From Pseudomonadota bacterium (GTDB taxonomy: Bacteria > Pseudomonadota > Gammaproteobacteria > Burkholderiales > Rhodocyclaceae), in contig JAGTRU010000026.1 in the NCBI GenBank assembly GCA_018261905.1, positions 1 through 64,000 on the forward strand: a stretch of DNA of 64,000 bases, written 5' to 3'. The notes under the pieces are model-generated. The model worked only from the letters and a program-made list of their open reading frames with translations, searched no databases and had not been told where the DNA came from. Numbering within the stretch: the first letter of the stretch is position 1; every line of letters starts with the position of its first letter. The translations under genes were made by a program, and so were the position numbers. Shown piece after piece: positions 19,402 through 23,228 of this stretch.

Positions 19402-20577
19402 CTACCCGTAAGCCCGCAGGCTTTGCGAAAACTGGCGGAGGGCGGCGATGCCACTGGCTTCGGCGCGCTGACACCAGTTTTCGAGGTGGCGGACCAGTTG
19501 TTCGGGGGCCGCGGCATGGTTCCACAAGGCGGCCAGTTCCTGGCGCATCGTGTAGATGGTTTGCAGCACCGGACTGACGCGCAATACCCGGTGCAACGCC
19601 TCTTCTTCGGTCGGCGGCAGGGTCGCCGTTTCGCGTTGCAGCCAGTGCCTGATGGCGGCCACCGCCGTGCGGTCCCGGCCACCCGCCGCGGGGTCGGAAC
19701 GCAAGGCGGAGAACTCACCGCGCACGGTGCGTCGGAGCGCCCGGGCATACTTGGCGAGGACGGTGAAGCGGTGGCTGATCACGGCATGGACGGTGTCGGC
19801 ATCGCAGCAGGTCTTGCCGGGATGGCTGCGCAGGCGCGGGGCGACCTTGCGCACGGTGGCCAGGCCGAGCGTTTCAAGGAGACGGATGTAAGCCCAGCCG
19901 AGATCGAATTCCCAGCGGCGGCTGGAAAGTTTGGCCGAGGCCGCGTGAGCGTGATGGTTGTTATGCAGTTCCTCGCCGCCGACCAGGATGCCCCAGGGCA
20001 GGATGTTGCGCGAGGCGTCGCGGGTGGCGTGGCCGCGGTAACCCCAGAAGTGCCCGAGGCCATTGATGATGCCGGCCGCGAAGAGCGGAATCCAGATCAT
20101 CTGCACGGCCCAGACGGCGACTCCGGCGGCGCCGAAGAGCGTGACTTCGGCAATCAGCAGGGCGGCAATGCCGAGCATCGAATGCCGGGAATAGACCCGG
20201 TGTTCGAGCCAGTCGTCCGGGGTTTTCTGGCCGTATCGGGCCAGCGTCTCGGCTTGCTTCGCCGCCCGCCGGTAGAGCAGCGCGCCGCCCAACAGCACAT
20301 GGTAGATGCCGAAGCGCACCGGGCTGTGCGGATCTTCCGCGGTATCGCAGGTGGCGTGGTGCTTGCGGTGAACCGCCACCCATTCGCGGGTGATCGTGCC
20401 GCTGGTCAGCCACAACCAAAACCGGAAGAAGTGGCTGACGGCGGGATGCAGGTCGAGGCTGCGATGCGCCTGATGGCGGTGCAGGTAGATGGTGACGGCG
20501 GCAATCGTGACGTGAGTGAGGCCCAGGGTCAGCAGCACGAAGCCCCACCAGGGGAGCTCGGAGAAGGGGAATTGCAT
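19402..20577 (-). CDS. Acyl-CoA / acyl-lipid delta-9-type fatty acid desaturase
   Basis: This 391-residue membrane di-iron desaturase shows three histidine boxes: HRHQAHRSLDLH near residue 34, HRKHHATCD near residue 71, and EELHNNHHAH near residue 206. Hydrophobic segments lie between them. The desaturase core ends around residue 270. The remaining 120 residues are soluble and helical, ending with WCQRAEASGIAALRQFSQSLRAYG. This tail reminds me of the C-terminus of ISL3-type transposases and is also known from some proteobacterial desaturases, which is recollection and unchecked. The gene is convergent with the E2 gene. It would introduce double bonds for membrane fluidity control. Confidence 0.88.
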   Translation of the reverse strand: MQFPFSELPWWGFVLLTLGLTHVTIAAVTIYLHRHQAHRSLDLHPAVSHFFRFWLWLTSGTITREWVAVHRKHHATCDTAEDPHSPVRFGIYHVLLGGALLYRRAAKQAETLARYGQKTPDDWLEHRVYSRHSMLGIAALLIAEVTLFGAAGVAVWAVQMIWIPLFAAGIINGLGHFWGYRGHATRDASRNILPWGILVGGEELHNNHHAHAASAKLSSRRWEFDLGWAYIRLLETLGLATVRKVAPRLRSHPGKTCCDADTVHAVISHRFTVLAKYARALRRTVRGEFSALRSDPAAGGRDRTAVAAIRHWLQRETATLPPTEEEALHRVLRVSPVLQTIYTMRQELAALWNHAAAPEQLVRHLENWCQRAEASGIAALRQFSQSLRAYG

Positions 20578-20716
20578 GGCACTCTTTGGCAAGGGGAAGC
20601 AGGCGGCGAAGAACGCTTCACCGGTCGAGCCGTGGCGGGCACTCGAACTCGGTTTCGACAGCGCCCTCAGGTGGGAGTTCAGCCCGTCCGGTGGGTGGCG
20701 AAGGCGGCCTTCGGCG

Positions 20717-22810
20717 TCAGGCGATCCGGCGCGGCGGGCGGGCCATGTCGCGCAGGGTTTCGGCAATCTGGTCGATGCCCCAGTCGAGCGTCGGCTGGTC
20801 GATGATCAAGGGCGGCGCGATGCGCAGCACGGTCTGGTGCGTGTCCTTGCTGAGGATGCCGCGCTGCAGCAGTTGTTCGGCCAGTTGCCGGGCGTCGGCC
20901 CGGCTCGGCTCGAGTTCGATGCCGGCGAACAGCCCGACGCCGCGCACGGCGCGAATCGCCGGCAACTCGGCGGCCAGGGCCGCCAGACGTTGCTGCAGGT
21001 GGCGGCCGAGTTGTGCCGCGTGCTCGACCAGGTTTTCGTCTTCCAGCAGGTCGAGGGCGGTGAGGGCGACGGCCGCCGCCAGCGGATTGCCGCCGAAGGT
21101 CGAACCGTGGTCGCCGGGCGTGAATACCTGCATCACCGCATCGTCGGCGAGAAAGGCGGAGACCGGCAGCAAGCCGCCGCCCAGCGCCTTGCCGAGGATG
21201 ATGCCGTCCGGCCGCAGCGCTTCGTGCTGGTAGGCGAACAGGCGGCCGGTACGGCCGAGGCCGGTCTGCACTTCGTCGACGATGAGCAGCACGTTCTGCC
21301 GGCGACAGAGCGCGGCGCAGGCGCTGAGGTAGCCGGCGGGCGGCACGATGACGCCGCCTTCGCCCTGGATCGGCTCGACCAGGAAAGCGGCGGTATTCGG
21401 CCCGATGGCCGCGGCCAGGGCGCCGATATCGCCGTAGGGCACGATTTTCAGGCCTGGCGGGAAGGGGCCGAAGCCATCGCGATACTGCGCTTCCGAGGAC
21501 AGGCCGACGATGGCGATCGAACGGCCATGGAAATTGCCCTGGCAGGCGATGATCTCGGCTTGGCCGGGGGGGACGCCCTTGATCCGGTACGCCCATTTGC
21601 GCGCCGCCTTGAGCGCCGTTTCGACCGCCTCCAGCCCGGTATTGACCGGCAGCACCCGCTGGTAGCCGGAAAGCAGGGACAGGCGGCGGAGCAGCAAGGG
21701 CAGACGGTCGTTGGCATAGGCGCGGGAGGTCAGGGCGAGCCGGCCGGCCTGATCGGCGAGGGCGGCGAGCAGGCGGGGATGGGCATGGCCGAAACTGTTG
21801 GCGGAATAGGCCGACATCAGGTCGAGGTAGCGCCGGCCCGCGGTGTCGCTGACCCAGCAGCCGCTGCCCTGGCTGAGGACGACCGGCAGCGGGGCATAGT
21901 TGCGGGCGCCGAAACTGTTTTCCCAGCGCTGCAGGACGGCGTCGTCGGGGGCTGCGATGGCGTCGATCAGGGCCTCGATCAGGCGGGCGGTCCGGCCATC
22001 CGGATCGGCGGCCGGGTTGTATTCGGCAATCTCGAAACCGATGCAGTCGCGCTCGCGCAGCAGGCCGCGCAAGGCCGGCAGCAACTTGTTGGCGGCCAGG
22101 CCGGCGGCGACGGGGGTATTGACGCCGGGCGCCGCCGCCGGGTCGATGGCGTCGACATCGAGGCTGACGCCCCACGGTCCGGTGCCGAGCAGGCGGCGGG
22201 CCTCGGCCAAAACGGCGGGCAGGCCGCGGCGGGCGACCTCGTCGGCGCTGAAGATGCGCACCCCGAGGCGGTCGAGAAAGGCGCGCTCGGCCGTTTCAGA
22301 ACTGCGCACGCCGATCATCACCAGGCGTTGCGGGTTGAGCTTGGGGCCGGGAATGTCGACCAGGTCGGGATCGCCGGCGCCGAGCAGGGCGGCGACCGGC
22401 ATGCCATGAAGATTGCCGGTCGGCGAGGTGGCCGGCGTGTGGGCGTCGAGATGGGCGTCGATCCAGATCAGGCCGGGCATCGCCCCGCGCGCCCGGGCGA
22501 TGCCTTTCCAGGTGCCGGCGGCGATAGCATGGTCGCCGCCGATCACCAGCGGCCGTTCGCCGGCCAGGATGGTGCCTTCCGTGCGTTCGGCCAGGGTCAG
22601 CAACAGCTCATGCAGCGGCGCGGCGTGGACCAGCCGGGGGTGGAGGATAGTGTCGAGGCGGCAGGTCAAGCCCTGATGGCGCAAACTGGCGCCGATCGAT
22701 TGCCCAAACAGGACTGCCGGTGCCCGTTCGCTACCGGCGGCCGGCGCCCCGAGTGCCGAAGCGACGCCGATGCAGCGCACGGTCGGGTTGAGCGGCAGCA
22801 GTTGGCGCAT
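20717..22810 (-). CDS. Bifunctional arginase-ornithine aminotransferase fusion
   Basis: One uninterrupted 697-residue frame encodes two consecutive enzymes of arginine breakdown. Residues 1-290 are an arginase: Mn ligands are visible in GGDH (91-94), DAHLD (118-122) and SLDVDAIDP (216-224), with the arginase-specific SPTGNLHGMP and AEYNP (E263). Residues about 295-697 are a class-III ornithine aminotransferase: SAYSANSFGH, NTGLEAVETALKAARKW, VEPIQGEGG, DEVQTGLGRTG (D512) and the PLP lysine K541 in LGKALGGG. The start follows an AAGGAG site. The enzyme should turn arginine into urea and glutamate-5-semialdehyde. These are normally two genes (rocF and rocD). There is no sign of a frameshift artefact at the junction. 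Confidence 0.92.
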   Translation of the reverse strand: MRQLLPLNPTVRCIGVASALGAPAAGSERAPAVLFGQSIGASLRHQGLTCRLDTILHPRLVHAAPLHELLLTLAERTEGTILAGERPLVIGGDHAIAAGTWKGIARARGAMPGLIWIDAHLDAHTPATSPTGNLHGMPVAALLGAGDPDLVDIPGPKLNPQRLVMIGVRSSETAERAFLDRLGVRIFSADEVARRGLPAVLAEARRLLGTGPWGVSLDVDAIDPAAAPGVNTPVAAGLAANKLLPALRGLLRERDCIGFEIAEYNPAADPDGRTARLIEALIDAIAAPDDAVLQRWENSFGARNYAPLPVVLSQGSGCWVSDTAGRRYLDLMSAYSANSFGHAHPRLLAALADQAGRLALTSRAYANDRLPLLLRRLSLLSGYQRVLPVNTGLEAVETALKAARKWAYRIKGVPPGQAEIIACQGNFHGRSIAIVGLSSEAQYRDGFGPFPPGLKIVPYGDIGALAAAIGPNTAAFLVEPIQGEGGVIVPPAGYLSACAALCRRQNVLLIVDEVQTGLGRTGRLFAYQHEALRPDGIILGKALGGGLLPVSAFLADDAVMQVFTPGDHGSTFGGNPLAAAVALTALDLLEDENLVEHAAQLGRHLQQRLAALAAELPAIRAVRGVGLFAGIELEPSRADARQLAEQLLQRGILSKDTHQTVLRIAPPLIIDQPTLDWGIDQIAETLRDMARPPRRIA

Positions 22811-22955
22811 GGAAGACTCCTTGTCGGCACACCTGCCCATTGGAACGTGGGCGGCCCGGGGAGTTCTGTTCATGCCGGCGGGAAGGGGATTGGCCGGCGG
22901 GGGAGTGGGGAAAAGGGGAACGGGGCGGCGCTGCCGACGGCCCGTGATCGTCGGC

Positions 22956-23228
22956 TTACTTTTGCAGACAGGCTTCGAAGGCCGCTTCGGCATGGCCCGG
23001 GAAGTTGTATTTGGCGAACAGGCGCTGCAACTGGTTGGAGCGAATCTTGGCGGTGGCGGCAAACCAGATTCCGATCCGCGTGCCCTGCTTGACCAGGGTG
23101 CTGAAGGCGTAGTGCCATTCGCGGGCTTCGGCGAGGCGCTCGATGACTTCCCGTTCGTTGCCGATCGCAATGCCGGCGCGTTTCAGCGAGTGGATGAACA
23201 GCGTTGATTCGTTTTGGTTCACAAACAT
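22956..23228 (-). CDS. Hypothetical small protein
   Basis: This 90-residue protein is not recognised. It starts at 23228 after a strong AGGGAG site and is basic and mostly helical, with no signal peptide, membrane segment or cysteine motif. Its sequence (FIHSLKRAGIAIGNE, EWHYAFSTLVKQGTRIG) looks like a genuine compact domain. It lies 145 bases upstream of the arginase fusion on the same strand and could be cotranscribed with it. Nothing identifiable lies in the intervening bases 22811-22955. Confidence 0.6.
   Translation of the reverse strand: MFVNQNESTLFIHSLKRAGIAIGNEREVIERLAEAREWHYAFSTLVKQGTRIGIWFAATAKIRSNQLQRLFAKYNFPGHAEAAFEACLQK

Follow-up and report, generated by a model that had tools for sequence, protein, structure and literature searches.

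The window, by which the whole stretch of DNA that was analysed (64,000 nucleotides) is meant, contains a gene for an arginase-ornithine aminotransferase fusion on the minus strand at positions 20717 to 22810, identified by its reading frame, by Pfam and NCBIfam models and by its relatives. It consists of one uninterrupted frame of 697 residues, with an ATG at 22810 and a stop codon ending at 20717; the plus strand is open over this interval too, and the first-pass annotation had named no strand. The frame extends open 5' of this ATG, with a further candidate start at 23170. In a comparison of starts, relatives from the genus begin where the ATG at 22810 falls, and a Shine-Dalgarno-like AAGGAG, read from the sequence, is located 6 bases 5' of it (22817-22822, minus strand). 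The N-terminal domain (residues 14-284; 21959-22771, minus strand) matches the Pfam family Arginase PF00491 with 184.2 bits against a gathering cut-off of 22, and the solved structures most closely related to it are those of arginases, for example 1cev. The C-terminal domain (residues 301-686; 20753-21910, minus strand) matches Aminotran_3 PF00202 with 393.4 bits against a cut-off of 30.5 and is assigned to ornithine aminotransferases by TIGR01885 and the solved structure 3ruy. No domain besides these two was found in the Pfam search of the 697-residue protein. The single frame with an arginase followed by an ornithine aminotransferase, as first described, is thus confirmed by both Pfam domains and the lack of any interruption.

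The two Pfam domains are separated by 16 residues. This junction (residues 285-300; 21911-21958, minus strand), defined by the Pfam bounds, a structure model and the sequence, is without an in-frame start codon. In the predicted model (a monomer built from 28 sequences; mean pLDDT 88.9, pTM 0.79) the last arginase helix comprises residues 273-286 and the first transaminase helix residues 290-300, which leaves a short junction with helices on either side and agrees with the linker of only a few residues noted at the outset. The best 50 matches listed by a fold search were all transaminases, and the arginase half was assigned by sequence. E263 and Y305 are 42 residues apart in 69 of 79 rows and 43-45 residues apart in six of the seven rows from outside the family; a spacing of 35 residues occurs only in the four rows with a dead arginase half (see below). 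Arginases form trimers or hexamers. For human ornithine aminotransferase (OAT), a hexamer in the crystal, of uncertain relevance, is described in PMC5372011.

An internal start that yields a free transaminase would speak against a fusion. Between codons 256 and 331 of the window gene there is no in-frame ATG, GTG or TTG from which translation of the transaminase half could begin within the linker, and this possibility was rejected for the gene. Among the relatives, an ATG is found in the junction region (codons 267-306) in 16 of 80 rows, and an ATG, GTG or TTG in 57 of 80; an internal start may be used there.

Regarding the arginase half, the manganese motifs were located as GGDH (residues 91-94), DAHLD (118-122) and SLDVDAIDP (216-224). 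H94, D118, H120, D122, D218 and D220, which we take to be the ligands of the two manganese ions, align with 1cev, and all six are invariant in an alignment of 28 fusion rows, as are H135 and E263. The best NCBIfam model was the arginase equivalog TIGR01229, which gave 160.6 bits over residues 1-297 and missed its cut-off of 227.6 bits; the next best was formimidoylglutamase with 88.2 bits, and none of the equivalog cut-offs for arginase, agmatinase and formimidoylglutamase was reached. His124 sits at the place of Asn130 of human arginase; the four solved arginases compared by alignment have Asn there, and His occurs at this position in 53 of 59 rows of the family draw. Glu172 sits at the place of Asp183, where the solved arginases carry Asp in three cases and Glu in 8d27. 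According to PMC9224512, the substrate carboxylate is held by N130, S137 and N139 in human arginase, the efficiency of the enzyme is reduced by N130D or by a loop change with N130Y, and published changes of Asn130 either reduce efficiency or let agmatine in. The initial statement that neither half lacks a key residue therefore stands with respect to the six manganese ligands, all of which are present, but fails with respect to the carboxylate-binding Asn130, which is replaced by His124.

In the tree, the arginase half is placed in a subfamily that a long branch sets apart from canonical arginases. Second, separate arginase-family genes of the DAHLDSHTP or DAHLDAHTP kind occur in this genome and in the 15 genus relatives whose gene was fetched; these 16 genes group in a single clade, which falls among the domains from fusions and from adjacent genes and lies far from canonical arginases. 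The separate His-type gene of this genome (L001; G000:C26:260852-261694) scores 161.7 bits with TIGR01229, below the cut-off. Judged by sequence, the arginase half belongs to a His-type subfamily, which together with the domain combination constitutes the new part of the family. In view of the missed equivalog cut-off and the altered amino-acid-binding loop, we infer the substrate, which is likely to be arginine. The remodelled carboxylate loop (His124, Glu172), the long branch and the failure to reach any of the three equivalog cut-offs could also be explained if this half preferred another guanidino compound (agmatine, guanidinobutyrate or homoarginine) and the second half took the amine product. 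This explanation is considered improbable, because TIGR01229 scores far ahead of the next model, the loop T/S-G-N-x-H-G-M-P resembles that of the aligned solved arginases, the second half carries ornithine-type residues, and loss of the first half accompanies a canonical arginase, as described below. Cleavage of arginine is accordingly preferred as the activity of the first half.

The transaminase half passed the ornithine aminotransferase model TIGR01885 (485.3 bits, cut-off 378.4) and missed the stricter model NF003145 (513.8, cut-off 656). The nearest solved chain, by sequence as well as by fold, is the RocD structure 3ruy, with an identity of 51% and a TM-score of 0.96 by target length. 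The pyridoxal phosphate (PLP) residues K541 and D512 were found where the first reading had put them. In the alignment with human OAT, residues Y305, Y335, R430, E484, D512, K541, G569 and R663 correspond to Y55, Y85, R180, E235, D263, K292, G320 and R413, and all of them are invariant in the 28-row fusion alignment. Y55, Y85 and G320 are the residues altered in the mutant structure 2byl (Y85I Y55A G320F), and some of these positions presumably set the specificity for ornithine. The two consecutive catabolic enzymes on one chain, as originally proposed, thus represent a real fusion with catalytic residues in both halves.

Within the genus, a full-length fusion in one frame without internal stop was found in 16 of 76 genomes (G063, where a piece is cut by a contig end, was counted as being without a fusion). 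Within the family, matches were obtained in 60 of 199 genomes, representing 25 of 68 genera (E up to 1e-100). Every family match includes sequence of both halves within a single open frame; three are cut by contig ends (G151, G178, G235), one (G210) was judged by motifs only, and four rows first listed with a stop were single frames on re-reading. No free transaminase of this type was found in the 199 family genomes at E up to 1e-100. Regarding the order, 17 of 300 genomes yielded a match (E up to 1e-105), nine of them fused (two of this genus and seven from four other families); the remaining eight matches are essentially confined to the transaminase half, which in one case (G555) lies in the same frame as another domain. 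Regarding the phylum, 21 of 398 genomes matched and a fusion was found only in this genome; G807 has two genes with a stop between them, and the other 19 matches consist, by matched range, of the transaminase half only. The best 80 of at least 593 matched loci in a genome collection contained eight one-frame fusions and one cut by a contig end, including those of Zoogloea dura and Aromatoleum diolicum; some of these loci look like contigs already in the draws. Among 72,556 plasmid records, 24 matched (E up to 1e-100), and the three matches covering 80% of the query were separate rocF and rocD frames.

The frame in G555 (L236:6313-8670, same order, 786 codons) is open throughout and joins a transaminase of this family to a DDAH-type domain (PF19420), with an AGGAG-preceded ATG at the junction. 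It may represent two genes without a stop between them, or another fusion of an arginine enzyme.

In place of a stop or frameshift between the domains, which the first-pass annotation had named as evidence against a fusion, the relatives showed the same one-frame architecture, and the genome counts point to a conserved family rather than a peculiarity of this genome. As adjacent separate rocF-rocD pairs occur elsewhere, a sequencing or assembly error could in principle have joined two genes; the identical one-frame architecture in dozens of other genomes makes this exceedingly improbable, and the preservation of the architecture in relatives shows that neither chance nor a local sequencing error is responsible. 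The fusion is real and represents a conserved family of bifunctional enzymes.

In four loci from metagenome-assembled genomes (MAGs) of Proteobacteria (L067, L073, L079 and L083), an arginase gene of the same subfamily lies directly 5' of the transaminase gene and separate from it, with a stop between the genes in L067, a different frame in L073, L079 and L083, and an overlap of 8 bases in L083; as these are MAGs, a frame error is possible in single cases. The probable ancestor of the fusion is a pair of neighbouring rocF and rocD genes like those that other Proteobacteria still have as separate genes; to fuse such a pair, it would have been enough to lose the stop between them and, where necessary, to change the frame. 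One origin of the fusion, tested with 23 fusion rows, gave p-AU values of 0.53 (OAT) and 0.23 (arginase). In the free OAT tree the row L201 (genus g25) stands apart; without g25, the other 21 fusion rows form one OAT clade with a support of 96. In the free arginase tree, the fusions from other families are interspersed with separate arginases and with those encoded by adjacent genes. Several origins, for which the position of L201 might speak, were set aside since a single fusion clade is not rejected by p-AU. A single origin is thus allowed by both sequence trees, not proven.

The 59 family-draw fusions that were read by residue have all six manganese ligands in 54 cases and not in four, and one lacks that part because of a contig end; in the 60th (G210) the motifs are present. 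The ligands are also intact in all 13 further genus rows and in all seven rows from outside the family. The metal-less form corresponds to one genus, g50, in which it was found in all four genomes with a fusion; a fifth genome (G124) yielded no match. The respective loci, L183 (G265), L184 (G213), L181 (G178) and L189 (G242), each encode a natural pseudo-arginase. The ligand strings read QDREDS in three and QDRDDS in one, versus HDHDDD, and E263 is lost. The frames are nevertheless open (693-738 residues), and the transaminase residues lying within the contig are kept. Ratios of dN/dS, obtained by a simple Nei-Gojobori count, were 0.19-0.38 for the arginase half and 0.08-0.17 for the transaminase half in six g50 pairs, and well below 1 for both halves in seven pairs. 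All four g50 genomes with the fusion, as well as G124, carry a separate arginase above the TIGR01229 cut-off. In G017, a genome of the genus under study, the fusion is decayed by a stop and frame changes, and a canonical arginase is present. With the loss in g50 considered as one evolutionary event, the arginase half was lost twice independently, each time beside a separate canonical arginase, which suggests that the domain in the fusion fulfils the role of an arginase.

A canonical arginase was found in none of the 16 genus genomes with a full-length fusion, in 11 of 59 without and in the one with the decayed gene. In the family draw it was present in three of 56 genomes with a fusion outside g50 (G119, G128, G239), in four of four with the dead form and in 21 of 139 without a fusion. 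(Note that the genus and family sets share the fusion genomes G000, G006 and G029, and that the two family draws were taken as the same 199 genomes on account of equal size and shared handles.) With the dead and decayed genes left out, the association was not significant (Fisher p 0.09 in the family and 0.11 in the genus, phylogeny uncorrected), and mutual exclusion of the fusion and a canonical arginase was therefore dismissed.

The g50 proteins, which are devoid of metal ligands in all four cases and yet retain an open frame and a constrained arginase half, are what would be expected if this half served the transaminase chiefly in structure or regulation and its own catalysis were dispensable. 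The intact ligands in the great majority of family-draw fusions and in all genus and outside rows argue against such a role, which is regarded as unlikely for the family, and a catalytic arginase half remains preferred.

Gene context was compared for six neighbour families in 28 fusion loci (the window, L141-L159, L061-L066, L069 and L070); the neighbour regions comprised 19 fusion loci from the draw (a 20th region holds the decayed gene) and eight named loci, some of which resemble draw contigs. Apart from the window there are 27 fusion loci, of which 13 have prkA downstream on the same strand and six have gltD (glutamate synthase) upstream; in some relatives prkA, yeaH and spoVR are neighbours. 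PrkA is taken here to be the YeaG family. In E. coli, yeaG is described as acting in sustained nitrogen starvation (PMC4664914). A piperideine-6-carboxylate-type dehydrogenase is located 36-70 bases downstream in L153, L154, L156 and L062, three of these four scoring 700-713 bits, under the model cut-off of 730; in L070 such a gene lies divergently upstream and scores 756 bits, over the cut-off. PutA is found directly upstream in L155 and L157, below the cut-off of the PutA model, with both Pfam domains in L157. These neighbours in some relatives would fit a catabolism of arginine to glutamate. None of the six neighbour families was found at the window locus, nor in L144, L145, L158, L061, L063 and L069. 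The neighbours in the window are a pyruvate-dehydrogenase-type E2, a desaturase, DUF998 and pirin. One frame on the minus strand (19402-20766) encodes a fatty-acid desaturase domain and, after it, a partial ISL3-type transposase domain.

This genome itself encodes a PutA-type P5C dehydrogenase (687 bits), the urease alpha subunit (970 bits) and a cyanophycin synthetase (986 bits), so arginine, possibly derived from cyanophycin, could reach glutamate and ammonia. At G000:C31:30699-35466 the cyanophycin synthetase gene (over the cut-off) adjoins a second synthetase-like gene (below the cut-off). Co-occurrence was uninformative as a link to cyanophycin, a synthetase over the cut-off being present in 65 of the 76 genus genomes.

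With a probability of roughly 0.8, the protein is one bifunctional catabolic enzyme that converts arginine via ornithine to glutamate semialdehyde. The N-terminal di-manganese ureohydrolase would cleave its presumed substrate arginine to ornithine and urea, and the C-terminal PLP enzyme would transfer the delta-amino group of ornithine to 2-oxoglutarate, yielding glutamate and glutamate semialdehyde, which cyclises to P5C. PutA or another P5C dehydrogenase would then oxidise P5C to a second glutamate, and urease would split the urea, both enzymes being encoded in this genome; the catabolic direction and any gain from proximity are likewise presumed. Selection of the fusion for ornithine channelling or for shielding of the intermediate, and not just for equal dosage, is put forward tentatively. 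The junction is short and conserved in length, and adjacent genes stay separate proteins elsewhere, so co-expression alone needs no fusion; the clade with the dead arginase, however, retains the fusion, and channelling cannot be the sole reason for keeping it. More speculatively, the Rhodocyclaceae and their neighbours may possess an undescribed enzyme family that takes arginine to glutamate semialdehyde on one chain, with an uncharacterised arginase subfamily that has its own arginine-binding loop, with ornithine handed between the sites, and with a pseudo-arginase in one genus that still shapes or regulates the transaminase.

Separate RocF and RocD, encoded for example by plasmid pSM-2 of Skermanella mucosa (rocF followed by rocD), catalyse by annotation the same two reactions, and their genes have the same order; there, however, they are two proteins, and the loop of the arginase is DAHADFNTP, in which Asn takes the place of the His of the fusion. 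AgrE of cyanobacteria is described as working in a similar way, a single chain first taking the guanidino group off arginine and then using up the ornithine (PMC8262935). AgrE differs in its catalytic domains, an arginine dihydrolase and an ornithine cyclodeaminase, and in its products, proline and ammonia (PMC8262935), whereas glutamate semialdehyde and urea are predicted for the fusion. The domain families of AgrE are absent from the 697-residue protein, in which Pfam recognises only PF00491 and PF00202. PutA, composed of proline dehydrogenase and P5C dehydrogenase, likewise combines consecutive catabolic enzymes in one chain at a neighbouring pathway step, and differs from the fusion in its domains and reactions. 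PutA channels its intermediate. Among the open-licence PMC papers listed by literature searches, no title or beginning of an abstract describes an arginase-ornithine aminotransferase fusion. Both parts of the protein are enzymes of known kinds; their combination and the arginase subfamily are new.

As the family illustrates, catalytic residues can disappear from a fused domain without any break in the reading frame, and a loss of this kind would escape annotation based on family names. The fusion joins AgrE and PutA as an arginase-transaminase example of fused catabolic enzymes. A comparative set is at hand, comprising separate neighbouring genes, fusions that are intact, the metal-less form and the decayed gene; its natural sequences allow tests of channelling versus dosage versus structure.
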